A stretch of DNA of 64,000 nucleotides, from assembly GCA_017537965.1 (NCBI GenBank), contig JAFYJV010000009.1, forward strand, positions 19,598 to 83,597, given 5' to 3'. This document shows positions 23,417 to 31,584 of this stretch, piece by piece. Within the stretch, counting starts at the first letter, position 1. Every line of letters starts with the position of its first letter. The stretch is from Bacteroidales bacterium. Lineage in GTDB: Bacteria > Bacteroidota > Bacteroidia > Bacteroidales > F082. The position numbers and the translations under genes were made by a program. Under the pieces are notes generated by a model, which saw nothing but the letters and a program-made list of their open reading frames with translations, had not been told where the DNA came from and did not search any database.

Positions 23417-25231
23417 ATGCAGAGTATCAGAAATATAGCTATTATTGCCCACGTTGACCACGGCAAGACAACCTTGGTGGATCGCATCCTCTACCAATCC
23501 AAGCTTTTCAAGGAGTCGGATGAAGCCCCTGGGCAACTCATCCTCGACAACAACGATCTGGAGCGCGAACGTGGCATCACTATCCTCTCCAAAAACGTCT
23601 CAGTGCGTTACAAGGATGTGAAGATCAACATCATCGACACCCCTGGCCATGCCGATTTCGGAGGCGAGGTGGAACGTGTGCTGAACATGGCCGACGGCGT
23701 TCTCCTTTTGGTGGATGCGTTCGAAGGCCCCATGCCTCAGACGCGTTTCGTGCTGCAAAAGGCCATCGAGCTCGGACTGAAGCCCATCGTCGTCATCAAC
23801 AAGGTTGACAAGCCCAACTGTCGTCCCGACGAGGTGCAGGAAGCAGTGTTCGACTTGATGTTCAACCTTGGCGCCACCGAAGACCAGCTGGACTTCCCCA
23901 CCGTTTATGGTTCCTCCAAGCAAGGCTGGATGTCAGACGATCCCAACAACATAACTAGCGACGTCTCCTACCTGCTGGATACCATCATCGACACCATCCC
24001 TGAAGCCAAATACGAGGAAGGCACGCCCCAGATGCTGATCACCTCGTTGGATTACAGCTCCTATGTTGGCCGCATCGCCGTAGGCCGTCTGAAGAGAGGC
24101 ACCCTGCAAGCTGGCATGAACGTGTCATTGGTAAAACACGACGGTAGCGTGGTCAAGTCAACCATCAAAGAGTTATACACCTTTGAGGGACTGGGCAAGG
24201 AACGCACCAAGAAACCCATCCCGGCTGGCGACATCGTGGCATTAATGGGCTTGGAAGATTTCGAGATTGGCGATACTGTGGCCGACTACGAGAACCCCGA
24301 AGCGTTGCCACCTATCAAAGTTGACGAGCCCACCATGAGTATGCTCTTCACCATCAACAACTCCCCCTTCTTCGGACGAGAGGGCAAGTACGTCACTTCA
24401 CGCCATCTCCGCGAACGTCTTTACAAAGAAACTGAGAAGAACCTCGCTCTGAAGGTGGAGGACACCGACTCTCCCGATTCGCTGATGGTTTATGGCCGCG
24501 GCATCCTTCATCTCAGCATCCTTGTCGAGACCATGCGCCGCGAGGGCTACGAATTCCAACTTGGACAGCCCAAGGTCATCATCAAATACATCGACGATGT
24601 GAAGTGCGAACCCATTGAATGCCTCACAGTACTTGTCCCGGAAGATTTCGCAGGACGTGTCATTGAACAAGTGAGTGCCCGCAAGGGCGAGATGACCCAG
24701 ATGGAGCCCAAGGGCGACCGCATGTGCCTTGACTTCGACATCCCTTCAAGAGGCCTCATCGGTCTCCGCAACATCCTGCTCACCGCCACCGAGGGCGAAG
24801 CCATCATCTCGCACCGTTTCAAGGACTATGAGCCCTGGAAGGGTGAGATGCCATCACGCAACACCGGTGCGTTGATCTCCATGGAGACTGGACAAGCCAT
24901 TCCATACGCCATTTGGAAACTCCAGGACAGAGGTGTCTTTTTCGTCAACCCGAACGAGGACGTGTATGCAGGCCAAGTCATCGGCGAGAACACCCGTTCC
25001 AACGACATCGTCATCAACGTCAACAAGACCAAGCATCTTACCAATGTGCGTGCTTCCGGATCCGACGAAGCCATCCGTCTGATTCCTCCTGTACGCTTCT
25101 CCCTCGAAGAATACATGGAATACATCCGCGACGACGAATACCTCGAAGTCACCCCGAAGAGCCTTCGCTTGCGCAAGATCATCCTCGACGAGCTGGAACG
25201 CAAACGGGCAAACAGAAACAATGAAAATTAA
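23417..25231 (+). CDS. typA: Ribosome-associated GTPase TypA/BipA
   Basis: TypA/BipA is a translational GTPase of the EF-G family that helps ribosome assembly and stress adaptation. The 604 residues carry G1 [10 protein letters not shown]2 ERGITI, G3 [13 protein letters not shown]4 INKVDKPNC, and the EF-G-like domains III and V plus the BipA C-terminal domain with [25 protein letters not shown]. The length is normal. The final codons overlap an AT-rich 7-bp-periodic run that leads into the next gene, so the lipoprotein and gcvP may be co-transcribed with it. Confidence 0.96.
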
Positions 25232-25250
25232 TAATATAGAATTTAAAATT

Positions 25251-25853
25251 ATGAGAAAGATCGTTAGAATTATTGCCATTGTGATGCTGACAGCATCCTT
25301 CACGGCTTGCGAAGAGTTGGCCCAACTTGCCAACCAAGCCGCACAAGTCATCAACCTGAAAAACTGCATCTTTGACGTCAATGGCATCAGCCAAATCAAC
25401 ATGTTGGGCATTGACCTCAGCAAAGGCATGAACAAGAACAACTTGAATGCCACCCAGTTGTTGAACGTGACCACCTCACTGCTGAACAGACAGCTTCCCG
25501 TCTCCTTCAACGTCAACATCGACGTTGACAACCCGAACAGTATCGCCGCTTCCTTGGGCAAGATGGACTACATCATCGCCTTGAACAACAAGGAGATTAT
25601 CAGCAGCACTTTCACGCAAGGCTTCAGCATCCCAGCCAACTCACAGGGCAAGATCTCCATCCCAATCAGCACCGACTTGTTTCAGCTGTTCAGTGGCGAG
25701 ACTGCGGATGCCATCTTGAACCTCGCCTTCAAACTGGCAGGCGCACAAAGCGACCCTGTCAACCTGGGAGTCAAGGTGAAGCCCTACATCAAGGTAAACA
25801 ACCAATCCTTAGCTTATCCAGATTTCATTACAATTAATAAGGTATTACAATGA
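25251..25853 (+). CDS. LEA type 2-like lipoprotein
   Basis: The 200-residue lipoprotein has a type II signal with lipobox ending TAC (Cys20). The mature domain resembles late-embryogenesis-abundant type 2/WHy domains: SFNVNIDVDNPNSIAASLGKMDY, ALNNKEIISSTFTQGFSIPANSQGKISIPI. These are fibronectin-like beta sandwiches seen in many Bacteroidetes lipoproteins, with unknown role. The start chosen (25251) gives the lipoprotein signal; an ATG 30 bases earlier lies inside typA and would add charged residues. Its last codons overlap the gcvP start by four bases (ATGA), so both are translated together although the functions seem unrelated. Confidence 0.82.
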   Translation: MRKIVRIIAIVMLTASFTACEELAQLANQAAQVINLKNCIFDVNGISQINMLGIDLSKGMNKNNLNATQLLNVTTSLLNRQLPVSFNVNIDVDNPNSIAASLGKMDYIIALNNKEIISSTFTQGFSIPANSQGKISIPISTDLFQLFSGETADAILNLAFKLAGAQSDPVNLGVKVKPYIKVNNQSLAYPDFITINKVLQ

Positions 25854-28705
25854 TTAAAGACAATTTCATCAAGCGCCATAACGGCCCCACCGCATCGGAT
25901 GCAGAGAAGATGCTCAAGGTCATCGGCGTTGCATCGCAAGAACAACTTGTTGACGAGATTATCGCTCCTGAAATCCGTCTTCCCAAGCCGCTCAACATCG
26001 GTGAAGGCATGAATGAATACGAAGTCATCAGCCATCTCAAGGCTTTGGGCGCCAAAAACAAGCAGTTCCGCACCTACATCGGCTTGGGTTACTACAACAC
26101 CATCACCCCAGGCGTCATCACTCGTAACATCCTTGAGAATCCCGGGTGGTACACTTCCTATACGCCTTATCAAGCCGAAGTGTCGCAAGGCCGTCTCGAA
26201 GCCCTGCTGAACTTCCAGACTGTCATCAGCGATCTTACCGCCATGCCATTGGCCAATGCATCCCTTTTGGACGAAGGCACTGCTGCCGCAGAGGCCATGT
26301 TGATGTTCTGGCACAGCCGTAGCCGTGCACAAGTAAAGGCTGGCGTGCATAAGTTCTTCGTCGCCAACGACGTGTTCCCGCAAAGCATCGAAGTCATCAA
26401 GACTCGCGCCCACTTCCAAGGCATCGAGGTCGTGGTGGACGACATCGACAAGTTCGATTGCAGCGAAGAATACTTCGGCATCCTGCTCCAGTGCCCCGGT
26501 CAGTTCGGCGAGATCGTTGACAACCGCGCCAAAGTCGCAGCATGGAAAGAGAAAGGTATGCAAGTGGCCGTTGCGGCCGACCTGCTCAGCCTCACCCTCA
26601 TCACCCCTCCAGGTGAGTGGGGCGCCGACGTGGTGCTTGGCTCCAACCAGCGTTTCGGTCTGCCGATGGGATTCGGCGGTCCACACGCAGGCTACTTCGC
26701 TACCACAGAAGCTTATAAGCGCGACATGCCCGGTCGTATCATCGGCATCTCCAAAGATGCCCTTGGCAACCCTGCCTACCGTCTGGCTCTCCAGACTCGC
26801 GAGCAGCATATCAAACGCGAGAAAGCGACGTCCAATATCTGCACCGCTCAGGCACTGCTGGCCATCATGTCGGGCTTCTACGCCATCTACCATGGCCCCG
26901 ATGGCTTGATTGAAATCGCCCACCATATCAACTGCCTCGCCGGCAAGCTGACCTCCGAACTGGCCAAACTCGGCGTGAAGCAGCTCAACAAATACTTCTT
27001 CGACACGCTGTTGTTCGAACTGCCCGAAGGCGCCTGCACCTGCAAGATCAAGGAAACCGCCGAGAAACACGGCATGAACTTCCGCATCATCGACAAGCAG
27101 CACTTCGGCATCAGCCTTGACGAGACTACCGCTCGCGAAGACATCAACGAGATCGGACAAGTCGTCGCCGAAGCCCTCGGCAAACAGCATGAGGAACTGG
27201 TTTGCGACCCGAACTGCCAGAAGTTCAGCGGCATCCCGACTGAGATGCAACGTACCTCAAAGTTCCTCCAAGCCCCGCTGTTCTTCAAGTACCGCAGCGA
27301 GACCGACATGATGCGTTACATGAAGAAATTGGAGAACCGCGACCTCAGCCTCAATCGTTGCATGATCCCGTTGGGTTCCTGCACCATGAAGCTGAACCCC
27401 GCCACCTCGATGTACGCCCTCAGCTGGCCTGAGTTCGGCAACATCCACCCCTTCGTCCCCGCCGACCAAGTGGAAGGCTATCTCGAACTCATCAACGAGA
27501 TGGAGAAAGACCTCTGCGAGATCACAGGCTTCAAGGGCATGAGCTTCATGCCTAACTCGGGTGCCAGCGGCGAATATGCCGGTCTGCTCACCATCCGCCG
27601 TTACCAAGAGGCAAACGGTCAGGGTCACCGCAATATCTGCCTGATCCCTGCTTCAGCCCACGGCACCAACCCAGCTTCCGCCGCCATGGCTGGTATGCAA
27701 GTGGTGGTGGTAGCCTGTGACGAGCACGGCAACATCAACCTCGAAGATGCCAAGGCAAAAGCCGAGCAATATAAGGACAACCTAGCGGCTTTCATGGTCA
27801 CCTATCCTTCTACTCACGGTATCTATGAGGACGGCATCCGCACCCTCGTGAAGATCGTCCACGACAACGGCGGACAAGTCTATATGGACGGCGCCAACAT
27901 GAACGCTCAAGTCGGCCTGACCAGCCCCGGTTACATCGGTGCCGATGTCTGTCACCTCAACCTCCACAAGACCTTCGCCATCCCGCACGGTGGCGGCGGT
28001 CCCGGCGTTGGCCCCATCGGTGTAGCCGAACACCTGAAGCCTTATCTACCTTCACACATCCTGTTCAAAACGGGCGGCGAAAAACAAGAAGGCGCTGTAT
28101 CAGCGGCTCCGTTTGGCAGTGCTCAGATCCTCACCATCACCTACTGCTACATCAAGATGCTGGGTGGAGAGGGCCTGAAGCAAGCTACCATGGGCGCTAT
28201 CATGAACGCCAACTACTTGAAGGAACGTCTGAAGGACTACTACCCGATCCTTTATACCGGCAACCACGGACACGTGGCACACGAGATGATTCTCGACATC
28301 AATGGCATCAACAAGACTGTTGGTGTGGCCGCCATCGACATCGCCAAGCGTCTGATGGACTTCGGTTTCCACGCTCCTACTGTGGCCTTCCCAGTGCACG
28401 AAACATTGATGGTAGAACCCACGGAGAGCGAGCCGATTGCCGAGTTGGATCGCTTCGTCGAAGCCATGATCAAGATCCGTGAGGAGATCAAGGACATCGA
28501 GGAAGGCCGCGCCCCGCAAGGCGACAACATCATCTCTCATGCGCCTTACACTGCCGAGATGCTGATGGCCAACGAGTGGAACTTCCCGTTCACCCGCGAA
28601 GAGGCCGGCTTCCCGATGAAGAGCGATGTCCAGGACAAGTATTTCCCACATGTCACCCGCATCGACGACGCCTACGGCGACAGGAATTTGGTTTGCAAAA
28701 TCTAA
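25850..28705 (+). CDS. gcvP: Glycine dehydrogenase (decarboxylating), P-protein of glycine cleavage
   Basis: GcvP decarboxylates glycine with pyridoxal phosphate and loads the aminomethyl group on the H-protein lipoyl arm. The 951-residue form is the fused homodimeric P-protein with both halves. The PLP lysine is Lys707 in HLNLHKTFAIPHGGGGPG; the glycine-rich loop and the SAHGTNPASAAMAG stretch are intact, as is the N-terminal FIKRHNGPTASDAEKML. No gcvT, gcvH or lpd is adjacent and no glycine riboswitch precedes it. The start overlaps the LEA-type lipoprotein. A 28-bp palindrome follows the stop and may act as terminator. Confidence 0.96.
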   Translation: MIKDNFIKRHNGPTASDAEKMLKVIGVASQEQLVDEIIAPEIRLPKPLNIGEGMNEYEVISHLKALGAKNKQFRTYIGLGYYNTITPGVITRNILENPGWYTSYTPYQAEVSQGRLEALLNFQTVISDLTAMPLANASLLDEGTAAAEAMLMFWHSRSRAQVKAGVHKFFVANDVFPQSIEVIKTRAHFQGIEVVVDDIDKFDCSEEYFGILLQCPGQFGEIVDNRAKVAAWKEKGMQVAVAADLLSLTLITPPGEWGADVVLGSNQRFGLPMGFGGPHAGYFATTEAYKRDMPGRIIGISKDALGNPAYRLALQTREQHIKREKATSNICTAQALLAIMSGFYAIYHGPDGLIEIAHHINCLAGKLTSELAKLGVKQLNKYFFDTLLFELPEGACTCKIKETAEKHGMNFRIIDKQHFGISLDETTAREDINEIGQVVAEALGKQHEELVCDPNCQKFSGIPTEMQRTSKFLQAPLFFKYRSETDMMRYMKKLENRDLSLNRCMIPLGSCTMKLNPATSMYALSWPEFGNIHPFVPADQVEGYLELINEMEKDLCEITGFKGMSFMPNSGASGEYAGLLTIRRYQEANGQGHRNICLIPASAHGTNPASAAMAGMQVVVVACDEHGNINLEDAKAKAEQYKDNLAAFMVTYPSTHGIYEDGIRTLVKIVHDNGGQVYMDGANMNAQVGLTSPGYIGADVCHLNLHKTFAIPHGGGGPGVGPIGVAEHLKPYLPSHILFKTGGEKQEGAVSAAPFGSAQILTITYCYIKMLGGEGLKQATMGAIMNANYLKERLKDYYPILYTGNHGHVAHEMILDINGINKTVGVAAIDIAKRLMDFGFHAPTVAFPVHETLMVEPTESEPIAELDRFVEAMIKIREEIKDIEEGRAPQGDNIISHAPYTAEMLMANEWNFPFTREEAGFPMKSDVQDKYFPHVTRIDDAYGDRNLVCKI

Positions 28706-28715
28706 ATTGAACATG

Positions 28716-28743
28716 GTAGAGACGGTGCATGCACCGTCTCTAC
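28716..28743. repeat. Perfect 28-bp palindrome, REP-like, after gcvP
   Basis: The left half is GTAGAGACGGTGCA and the right half is its exact reverse complement with no loop. It shares the AGAGACG...CGTCTCT core with the element at 62492-62515. It could end gcvP transcription, but no T-run follows, so a dispersed palindromic repeat is the better description. Confidence 0.75.
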
Positions 28744-28760
28744 ATTAAATAAATACAAAA

Positions 28761-29321
28761 ATGAAGAGAATATTCCTGTTTTTCGTTTGCTTGGCTTGCT
28801 TAGCCGCCTGCAACAACCAACCCAAGATCCAAGAGATTGCTGTCGGCGATTTCAACAAGAAAGCGCCTGAACTTCTTGATCAAGCCATCACCATCAAAGG
28901 TGTCGCCAATCACATCTGCCACAATAGTTTCCGCAAATTGTTCGTCGGAAGCCTTGACAGCGACGAGATGGTCACAGTGATGGCGGGTGAAAACATGAAG
29001 GACTTCGACCTTGACATGGAAGGCAAGAACGTCGTCGTGGAAGGCATCGTGAAGATCGCCAACACCATCGACAACGCCTATCTTGATGAATGGGAAAAAG
29101 AAATCATGGAAAACGGTGAAATGGAAGGCGAACACACCTGTGCCACCGAGCAAAAGGCCGAAGACGCAGCTGTTGGACAGGCAGAAGCCTCCGACACCAT
29201 CGTTCCAGAGAACCCACAGCTGGCACGTATCAAGGCCTATCGTCAAAAGATTGAGGAAAACGGCGGCAACCCGCTGGTATTCTACAACATTGTCGGCACC
29301 TCAGTGAAGGTCGTCGAATGA
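28761..29321 (+). CDS. Hypothetical lipoprotein with OB-fold-like region
   Basis: A 186-residue lipoprotein with signal MKRIFLFFVCLACLAAC (Cys17 lipidated). Residues 25-100 resemble small OB-fold/tRNA-anti-like lipoproteins of Bacteroidetes (ELLDQAITIKGVANHICHN, KLFVGSLDSDEMVTVMAGE, GKNVVVEGIVKI). It then has an acidic segment with a CATEQKAED linker and a C-terminal amphipathic helix and strand (YRQKIEENGGNPLVFYNIVGTSVKVV). Cys and His residues in HICHN and EHTCAT could bind a metal; that is only a possibility. It follows the palindrome, and converges with the S4 gene 15 bases away. Function unknown. Confidence 0.75.
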   Translation: MKRIFLFFVCLACLAACNNQPKIQEIAVGDFNKKAPELLDQAITIKGVANHICHNSFRKLFVGSLDSDEMVTVMAGENMKDFDLDMEGKNVVVEGIVKIANTIDNAYLDEWEKEIMENGEMEGEHTCATEQKAEDAAVGQAEASDTIVPENPQLARIKAYRQKIEENGGNPLVFYNIVGTSVKVVE

Positions 29322-29336
29322 TTAAGGAGGGAGGTG

Positions 29337-29579
29337 TCATTCCTCCCCTCCTTCTACCTCGATCTCGTAGTTTTGGAAGAAGATCACCTCTCCGGGGGTG
29401 ATCTTCGCTCTTTTACGGAGTTCCACTTCGCCGTTGCGCAGCACCATGCCCGCAACGACCGCGTCTTGAGCCTCACTCCCCGACTCCACCACACCTGTGG
29501 CTTTCAGCAGGGCAATCAGTGGGATGAACTCATCACCCTCGCGAAGCGTAAATATGATTCTATTTAGTTTCTGTACCAT
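29337..29579 (-). CDS. Small S4-domain RNA-binding protein (YbcJ-like)
   Basis: The 80-residue protein is almost entirely an S4-like fold: EFIPLIALLKATGVVESGSEAQDAVVAGMVLRNGEVELRKRAKITPGEVI, like stand-alone YbcJ-type S4 proteins that are thought to bind structured RNA. It ends with a tail VEVEGGEE. It reads in the same direction as rpsA but lies downstream of the terminator-like hairpin and its upstream gap is filled with a heptad repeat, so it is probably transcribed separately or by read-through. A ThiS-like ubiquitin fold was considered, but there is no C-terminal Gly-Gly. Confidence 0.75.
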   Translation of the reverse strand: MVQKLNRIIFTLREGDEFIPLIALLKATGVVESGSEAQDAVVAGMVLRNGEVELRKRAKITPGEVIFFQNYEIEVEGGEE

Positions 29580-29580
29580 C

Positions 29581-29615
29581 TTTTAACTTCTGACTTCTGT
29601 CTCCTATCTTCTAAA
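29581..29615. repeat. Heptad repeat, five TTCTGAC-like units
   Basis: TTTTAAC, TTCTGAC, TTCTGTC, TCCTATC and TTCTAAA are contiguous, with seven-base period. On the minus strand this is the leader of the S4 gene and reads as the same AGAAG type seen elsewhere. Confidence 0.75.
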
Positions 29616-29617
29616 AA

Positions 29618-29647
29618 GAAAAGCCGTCCTGGACAGGGCGGCTTTTC
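29618..29647 (-). terminator. Terminator hairpin after rpsA
   Basis: A 13-bp stem with one G-T pair (GAAAAGCCGTCCT with AGGGCGGCTTTTC) and a 4-base loop. On the minus strand it is followed by TTTTTAG, suiting termination 18 bases after the rpsA stop. Confidence 0.8.
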
Positions 29648-29664
29648 ATGGTTTTCAAGCAAGA

Positions 29665-30396
29665 TTACTCTGCTTGGGGTTCATCCTTGGCAGCAGCTTC
29701 CTGCTTCTCAAGGTTCTCCTTCAGACCGGCGAGGACTTCGAGGTCACCGAGGGTGCTGTGCTCGATATTCTCGTTGATCTGTTTGACAGCGCGCTTAGCC
29801 TGCTTGGCAGCCTTGTCGGCAGCGTTGTCGGCAGCAGCCTTGGCAGCGGCTTCCTTCTCTTCATAGAGCTTGGAATGGGCAAGGATGATCTTCTTGCTTT
29901 CCTTGGAGAATTCAATCACCTTGAAGTCGAGGGTTTCATCGACTTTGGCAGTGGTGCCGTCTTCCTTCTTCAGGTAACGGTTCGGGCAGAAGCCTTCCAC
30001 GCCGTAAGGCAGGGAGACGACAACGCCCTTGTCAGCAGCGCTGATGATCGTGCCTTGGTGGACAGAACCCACGGTAAACACGGTCTCGAACACTTCCCAA
30101 GGATTCTCTTCAAGCTGTTTGTGGCCGAGGCTGAGGCGACGGTTCTCTTCGTCCACGTCGAGGACGACGACGTCGATGCTCTCTCCAACCTTAGTGAATT
30201 CAGCCGGATGCTTGATCTTCTTCGACCAGCTGAGGTCGCTGATGTGGATGAGGCCGTCAACGCCTTCTTCCAGTTCGACAAAGATGCCGAAGTTGGTGAA
30301 GTTACGGACGGTAGCAGTGTGCTTGGAGCCGATCGGGTAACGATCCTTGATGTTAGCCCACGGATCCGGGATGAGCTGCTTCATGCCGAGAGACAT
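29665..30396 (-). CDS. rpsA: Ribosomal protein S1, C-terminal part (S1 domains 5-6) after the amber codon
   Basis: This is the downstream part of rpsA, 243 residues if translation restarts at ATG 30394-30396, which is only six bases after the TAG at 30403-30405. It holds the end of S1 domain 4 (MSLGMKQLIPDPWANI), complete domain 5 (ATVRNFTNFGIFVELEEGVDGLIHISDLSW), domain 6 (GTIISAADKGVVVSLPYGVEGFCPNRYL) and an Ala/Lys-rich tail. The reading frame is the same as that of the upstream part, so changing one codon would give a single 639-residue S1. I treat it as one interrupted gene. Whether a separate protein is made is unknown. Confidence 0.85.
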   Translation of the reverse strand: MSLGMKQLIPDPWANIKDRYPIGSKHTATVRNFTNFGIFVELEEGVDGLIHISDLSWSKKIKHPAEFTKVGESIDVVVLDVDEENRRLSLGHKQLEENPWEVFETVFTVGSVHQGTIISAADKGVVVSLPYGVEGFCPNRYLKKEDGTTAKVDETLDFKVIEFSKESKKIILAHSKLYEEKEAAAKAAADNAADKAAKQAKRAVKQINENIEHSTLGDLEVLAGLKENLEKQEAAAKDEPQAE

Positions 30397-30402
30397 CTTG
30401 CG

Positions 30403-30405
30403 CTA
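30403..30405 (-). other. rpsA: In-frame amber (TAG) codon inside rpsA
   Basis: The minus strand reads GAC CGT GAA TAG CGC AAG ATG. S1 proteins of Bacteroidetes have L-D-R-E-E-R-K-M-S-L-G at this place, so TAG stands where GAG is expected, one base away. TAG is an ordinary stop for at least four other genes here (ending at 593, 14845, 33992 and 62487). Confidence 0.9.
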
Positions 30406-31584
30406 TTCACGGTCGAGAGTGAGCACCTTGGCTTCCACCTCGTCACCGACTTTCAGGAAGTCGTGAGCTGTACGGAGGTGCTGTGACCATGACATTTCAG
30501 AGACGTGGATGAGGCCTTCAACGCCAGGAGCGATCTCGATGAACGCACCGTAGTCGGCGATGACAACGACCTTACCCTTGACAATGTCACCCACCTTGAG
30601 GTTCGGGTCAAGAGCATCCCACGGATGAGGAGTGAGTTGCTTGAGACCGAGGGCGATACGTTTCTTGTTGTCGTCAAAGTCGAGGATAACGACCTTGATC
30701 TTTTCATCCAACTTGACGATCTCTTCGGGATGGTTGATACGTCCCCAAGAGAGGTCGGTGATGTGGATGAGACCGTCAACGCCGCCGAGGTCGATGAAGA
30801 CTCCATAGGAAGTGATGTTCTTGACAACGCCTTCGAGGACCTGACCCTTTTCGAGCTTGCTGATGATCTCAGCCTTCTGGGCTTCAAGCTCGTCTTCGAT
30901 GAGTGCTTTGTGAGAGACCACCACGTTCTTGTATTCCTGGTTGATCTTCACGACCTTGAATTCCATCACGCTGTCAACAAACACGTCATAGTCGCGGATA
31001 GGCTTGACATCGATTTGCGATCCGGGAAGGAAGGAGTCGATGCCGAACACGTCCACGATGAGACCGCCCTTGGTGCGGCTCTTGACGTAACCGTTGACGA
31101 CTTCGCCACTTTCGTAGGCTGCGTTGACGCGATCCCATGACTTGAGGATGCGGGCCTTCTTGTGGGAGAGGACGAGTTGTCCGTTGGAGCCTTCTTGGCT
31201 TTCCACATAGACTTCGACCTTGTCGCCCACGGCGAGGTTCGGGTTGGTACGGAATTCAGCGATTGGAATAACACCATCAGATTTGAAGCCGATGTTGACA
31301 ACCACTTCGCGATCAGTCTTGGCAACCACAGTGCCTTCGATGACCTCATGGTCGGCGACTTGGTTCATGGTAGCGACATACTTGTCTTCGAGCTTAGCGC
31401 GCTCGTCGGCTGAGTAGTTGTCGAATTTCTTGTGTGAGGAAGTCCAATCGAAATCTTCGGCCGGAACCGGTTTCTGTTTCGGTGCCTTGGGAGCCTTTGC
31501 TACGGGAGCTTGTTCAACTGGAGTTTCAACGACCGTTTCTTCTGCTGGCATGGCCTCGTTGATGATGTTTTCGTTTTCTGCCAT
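30403..31584 (-). CDS. rpsA: Ribosomal protein S1, N-terminal part (S1 domains 1-4), truncated by TAG
   Basis: S1 is an essential ribosomal protein that binds mRNA at the small subunit. The upstream part starts at MAENENIINEAMPAEETV and contains domain 1 (GTVVAKTDREVVVNIGFKSDGVI), domain 2 (GYVKSRTKGGLIVDVFGIDSFLPGS), domain 3 (GVVKNITSYGVFIDLGGVDGLIHITDLSWGR) and domain 4 to its fourth strand (VVIADYGAFIEIAPGVEGLIHVSEMSWSQ...KVLTLDRE), 393 residues in all. It then stops at TAG in the last strand of domain 4; the frame continues with normal S1 sequence. A 5' extension of 15 codons exists without a better start. A TACCTTTG promoter lies about 130 bases upstream. Confidence 0.9.
   Translation of the reverse strand: MAENENIINEAMPAEETVVETPVEQAPVAKAPKAPKQKPVPAEDFDWTSSHKKFDNYSADERAKLEDKYVATMNQVADHEVIEGTVVAKTDREVVVNIGFKSDGVIPIAEFRTNPNLAVGDKVEVYVESQEGSNGQLVLSHKKARILKSWDRVNAAYESGEVVNGYVKSRTKGGLIVDVFGIDSFLPGSQIDVKPIRDYDVFVDSVMEFKVVKINQEYKNVVVSHKALIEDELEAQKAEIISKLEKGQVLEGVVKNITSYGVFIDLGGVDGLIHITDLSWGRINHPEEIVKLDEKIKVVILDFDDNKKRIALGLKQLTPHPWDALDPNLKVGDIVKGKVVVIADYGAFIEIAPGVEGLIHVSEMSWSQHLRTAHDFLKVGDEVEAKVLTLDRE

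Follow-up and report, generated by a model that had tools for sequence, protein, structure and literature searches.

An rpsA gene interrupted by a single TAG

The window analysed here, a stretch of 64,000 nucleotides from an uncultured gut Bacteroidales bacterium, is part of contig 7 of a draft assembly that comprises 2.32 Mb in 41 contigs with 93.8% completeness and 4.1% contamination. Its closest named relatives are metagenome-assembled Bacteroidales genomes, and several of their isolate names contain rumen, goat, buffalo or deer; the RUG in the isolate names of the nearest relatives presumably also stands for rumen. The draft consensus of the source assembly is probably metagenome-derived. 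On the minus strand, the window carries an rpsA gene whose reading frame is broken once, and the features discussed below are as follows.

29665..31584, minus strand: rpsA, encoding 30S ribosomal protein S1 with six S1 domains and one in-frame TAG (translation, PF00575 stretches, and a match to relative L033, whose S1 is 95% identical over 639 residues)
30406..31584, minus strand: upstream open part, 393 aa, with the N-terminal tail, S1 domains 1-3 and most of domain 4 (translation, PF00575, solved-domain matches)
30403..30405, minus strand: in-frame TAG, residue 394 of 639, within S1 domain 4 (translation and alignment to 79 relatives)
29665..30396, minus strand: downstream open part from its first ATG, 243 aa and stop, with the last stretch of domain 4, domains 5 and 6 and the C-terminal tail (translation, PF00575, low dN/dS)

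Translation of positions 29665-31584 on the minus strand yields 393 residues, a single stop at codon 394, and then 245 residues up to the normal terminal stop. The codons at the site read GAA TAG CGC AAG ATG. The initial annotation had described an rpsA frame intact on either side of one TAG, with an in-frame ATG six bases past it, and the translation and the codons bear out both points. A second intact copy of rpsA was not found in the assembly: a DNA search returned one match, and a protein search returned three, namely rpsA itself, a weak 37% S1-domain match on contig 30 and one weaker match. The gene lies in a series (window 23417-31584) with two neighbours that, by their sequences, encode a TypA-like GTPase and a glycine dehydrogenase, and the same order of the three genes is seen in the relatives L033 and L035.

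To place the stop within the protein, domains were delimited on the intact S1 of L033, whose best solved match is chain A of 9zcd, a 30S ribosomal protein S1, over residues 43-629. Six PF00575 stretches are found in this intact protein, and the fragments in the window carry four upstream and two downstream of the stop, so that the whole frame holds the six S1 (OB-fold) domains per chain that define bS1, with the stop interrupting it. Two solved S1 domains fall on the intact protein at residues 320-404 (5ie8) and 407-500 (2khi), and on these limits the stop lies about ten residues short of the end of domain 4. The proposed division into one polypeptide with domains 1-4 and another with domains 5-6 therefore does not hold; the break is inside domain 4, and each product would contain an incomplete domain.

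The site in relatives and selection on the two parts

We compared the site with 80 named relatives, 79 of which align over it (L109 does not span the position). Glutamate is encoded in 72 of the 79 (GAA in 41, GAG in 31), aspartate in six and glutamine in one; none of them has a stop. Another collection, which has some members in common with the first, provided loci for 29 relatives, and these were read; 12 further matching relatives were left out. Here 25 have glutamate and the other four have glutamine, asparagine, alanine and glycine, again with no stop among the 29. The ATG two codons past the site is present in every one of these 29 genes, all of which have a sense codon at the site itself. 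With one genome per species in the comparison, the best-matching relative shares 93% of the 311 bases around it.

We then turned to wider searches. Among the matches listed for 99 genomes of the genus, 61 have an S1 match of at least 600 residues; these comprise the window genome with its internal TAG, 51 genomes without a flagged stop and nine flagged ones, in none of which an internal stop was found on re-reading. Among the near-full-length congeneric S1 sequences listed, an internal stop is thus seen in the window genome only. Four more genomes of the genus were flagged on partial matches: two show terminal stops (G065 and G029), one a frame break (G017) and one two fragments (G066). The order-wide search found S1 in 281 of 294 genomes, with eight other flagged sequences among the matches listed, all of them terminal stops. 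Leaving the window genome aside, flagged S1 sequences came from 13 genomes of the genus and eight of the order-wide set. All except G066 were re-read, and these 20 have no stop within the aligned S1 frame except at its end, the TAG of G311 being such a terminal stop; flagged genus matches of lower identity, taken as other S1-domain proteins, were left out of the re-reading. Comparison with related genomes had been proposed as a check on the TAG, and its outcome is that the relatives examined lack a stop at the site and mostly have glutamate there.

Two congeneric rpsA genes are broken in other ways. That of G016 (L028) consists of two parts, which match one and the same relative at 96% and 85% and are separated by a frame break around position 1498-1500; it looks like a chimeric contig. 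In G017 (L011) the frame is broken exactly at two Ns (588-589), with flanks 74% and 85% identical to the same relative. Both breaks look like assembly faults.

We also estimated dN/dS against six relatives over 189 downstream and 336 upstream codons, with the variable tails left out. The ratio is 0.010-0.049 downstream and 0.008-0.033 upstream; it is higher downstream in five of the six comparisons and very low in all. Strong purifying selection thus acts on both parts of the gene. In an alignment of seven sequences, the window gene shows three changes at otherwise invariant columns, one of which is the stop. Such low downstream values leave no time for decay. Given selection on both parts, either the cell still produces the downstream part, or the stop is very recent or not real.

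Decoding of UAG, read-through and restart

One explanation would be that UAG codes for an amino acid in this organism, and the one codon in rpsA is all that speaks for it. Reassignment is recognised by loss of RF1, avoidance of UAG and many in-frame UAGs. What we found is an intact prfA, whose RF1 product scores above the curated cut-off, with a second, lower-scoring release-factor match that is free of internal stops and is presumably RF2. Of the window's long frames, taken without overlaps, TAG terminates 5 of 26; when 240 kb of contig 17 is added, it terminates 13 of 110. Both counts include the broken rpsA frame. No second in-frame TAG was recognised in conserved genes of the window, and the tRNAs of the assembly, described below, include none with a CUA anticodon. 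The initial annotation had regarded TAG as the normal stop of at least four other genes here and the code as not reassigned, and both statements stand; we consider reassignment to have a negligible probability.

Another explanation is suppression, in which a tRNA decodes UAG efficiently enough to yield full-length S1. The conserved downstream frame would fit this reading. The assembly contains 44 tRNAs above the Rfam cut-off, every one of them typed, and none has a CUA anticodon, in an assembly 93.8% complete; since tRNA-Phe is also missing from the 44, a tRNA gene could be absent from the assembly. Against suppression, besides the intact RF1, stands the use of TAG at the end of 13 of 110 long frames, since efficient suppression would extend many proteins. 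In addition, the two tRNAs for glutamine, possible near-cognates, have ordinary five-pair anticodon stems when their sequences are read by eye. We therefore judge suppression very improbable, and the suppressor tRNA suggested at first finds no support. Two identical tRNA-Trp genes lie on contigs 2 and 16 (L128 and L129), representing either a duplicate gene or a duplication in the assembly.

Both parts of S1 could also be made by programmed read-through, or as a functional split protein whose second half is produced by translational restart. The in-frame ATG six bases past the stop and the conservation of both parts are in keeping with this. The ATG is found at the same place in all 29 relatives that have a sense codon at the site, so it did not arise for restart. 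Programmed read-through is characterised by a shared stop and a stimulatory context; here, none of the 79 relatives has the stop, and no stimulatory RNA structure was found near it, the folding being no better than that of shuffled sequence (z = -0.10). A split gene, for its part, is expected to break at a domain boundary and to share the break with its relatives, while this break falls within domain 4 and the relatives examined do not share it; among the matches listed, the arrangement is absent from both the genus search and the order-wide search. Neither programmed read-through nor a truly split S1, both raised in the initial annotation, is borne out by these data, and we regard this pair of readings as very unlikely.

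The version in which the TAG is fixed in the species and both parts of S1 still arise, through read-through at a low level or through re-initiation at the nearby ATG, is likewise highly unlikely. Were it true, it would provide a natural two-piece or dosage-limited S1. Shine-Dalgarno sequences are naturally absent from members of this phylum, the Bacteroidota (PMC6847099), and a stop that was both real and fixed would offer a natural test of how much of S1 is required when initiation does not use Shine-Dalgarno sequences.

Sequence error or recent nonsense allele, and comparison with known systems

The five options first listed for the TAG can now be sorted: an error and a strain polymorphism fit the evidence, while suppression, read-through and a split S1 are unsupported. 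We are confident that the TAG is an isolated nonsense substitution private to this assembly, whether it stems from an error or from a nonsense allele that is rare and very young. The locus would then be an ordinary rpsA gene carrying one such substitution, most likely a wrong base in the draft consensus and, next most likely, a genuine allele of that kind within the population sampled. Nothing would be recoded, and most cells would make ordinary full-length S1.

A sequencing or assembly error is the reading we favour, if with modest confidence. Local errors that give wrong coding sequences are documented in uncurated assemblies (PMC7111523), and the draft state of the assembly and the rpsA breaks in G016 and G017 also count in its favour. 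Against it, no further break in a conserved frame was recognised in the window or over 240 kb of contig 17, so the assembly is not generally error-ridden. A frame scan of 304 kb returned six junctions, namely rpsA and five others that are probably gene boundaries or frames opposite another open frame. In a homology comparison of the window (46.5 kb aligned, antisense frames included), 25 other stop positions appeared. One is the terminal stop of a frame of 954 codons at 28705, almost all of the rest are contained in a longer open frame on another strand or in another phase, and those at 29584, 29591 and 29612 are at the edges of short frames near 29.6 kb; apart from the terminal stop, these positions are taken for shadow frames.

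One particular kind of error, a chimeric join at the site, was also considered. Downstream of the site the relative that matches best is G020 (90.8 and 91.0% identity in two segments); at the site this changes to G004 upstream, where three segments give 94.4 and 91.2% (both G004) and 86-88%. The runner-up is within about 0.5 to 1.8 points, and the relatives are about equally similar on either side. A switch by such small differences gives neither clear support for a join or recombination at the site nor a case against one.

The alternative to an error is a real nonsense allele, by which a strain with the TAG makes an S1 truncated inside domain 4 and perhaps small amounts of a C-terminal product initiated anew at the ATG six bases downstream. 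Carriers would be expected to release the chain normally through RF1 and to grow slowly. That little other sign of error is seen nearby speaks for such an allele, and so does the viability of S1 deletions in Escherichia coli. E. coli haploids whose S1 lacks domains 5-6 are viable, slow-growing and cold-sensitive, loss of domains 4-6 makes growth extremely slow, and loss of domain 3 besides domains 4-6 is lethal (PMC3858243). Since such truncations are viable, the label "essential" for rpsA is not in itself enough to dismiss a polymorphism. In the window, however, the last part of domain 4 is also lost, which moves the product nearer to the barely growing class; a real allele here would probably fall between loss of domains 5-6 and loss of domains 4-6 in E. 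coli. Against a real allele, moreover, no relative examined carries the stop, among the matches listed in the case of the order-wide search, and the downstream part is without decay, so that a real allele must be very young. On balance, we hold a real allele to be possible but doubtful, and return to an error in the consensus as the preferred reading.

The stop does not demonstrate a new biological mechanism, and the exciting readings of it are unsupported. As the evidence stands, single in-frame stops in draft genomes should be checked against reads and relatives before a biological reading is given to them. Literature listings on rpsA with an amber codon, on amber suppression or read-through in Bacteroides, and on S1 in Bacteroidota contained no such case.

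Among known systems, the local errors described for metagenome-assembled genomes (PMC7111523) resemble the present case in the same draft status, in a conserved gene being broken and in kin being unaffected. The E. coli rpsA alleles delta-6, delta-56 and delta-4-6 (PMC3858243) offer a second likeness, since the stop described here would likewise remove domains 5 and 6, a class of truncation that is viable in E. coli. Those alleles were engineered, and the stop in the window also removes the end of domain 4. Finally, compared with the six-domain form of the bacterial ribosomal protein bS1, the window gene has the same domain count, divided into four and two between its fragments, and differs from it by one in-frame TAG at residue 394.
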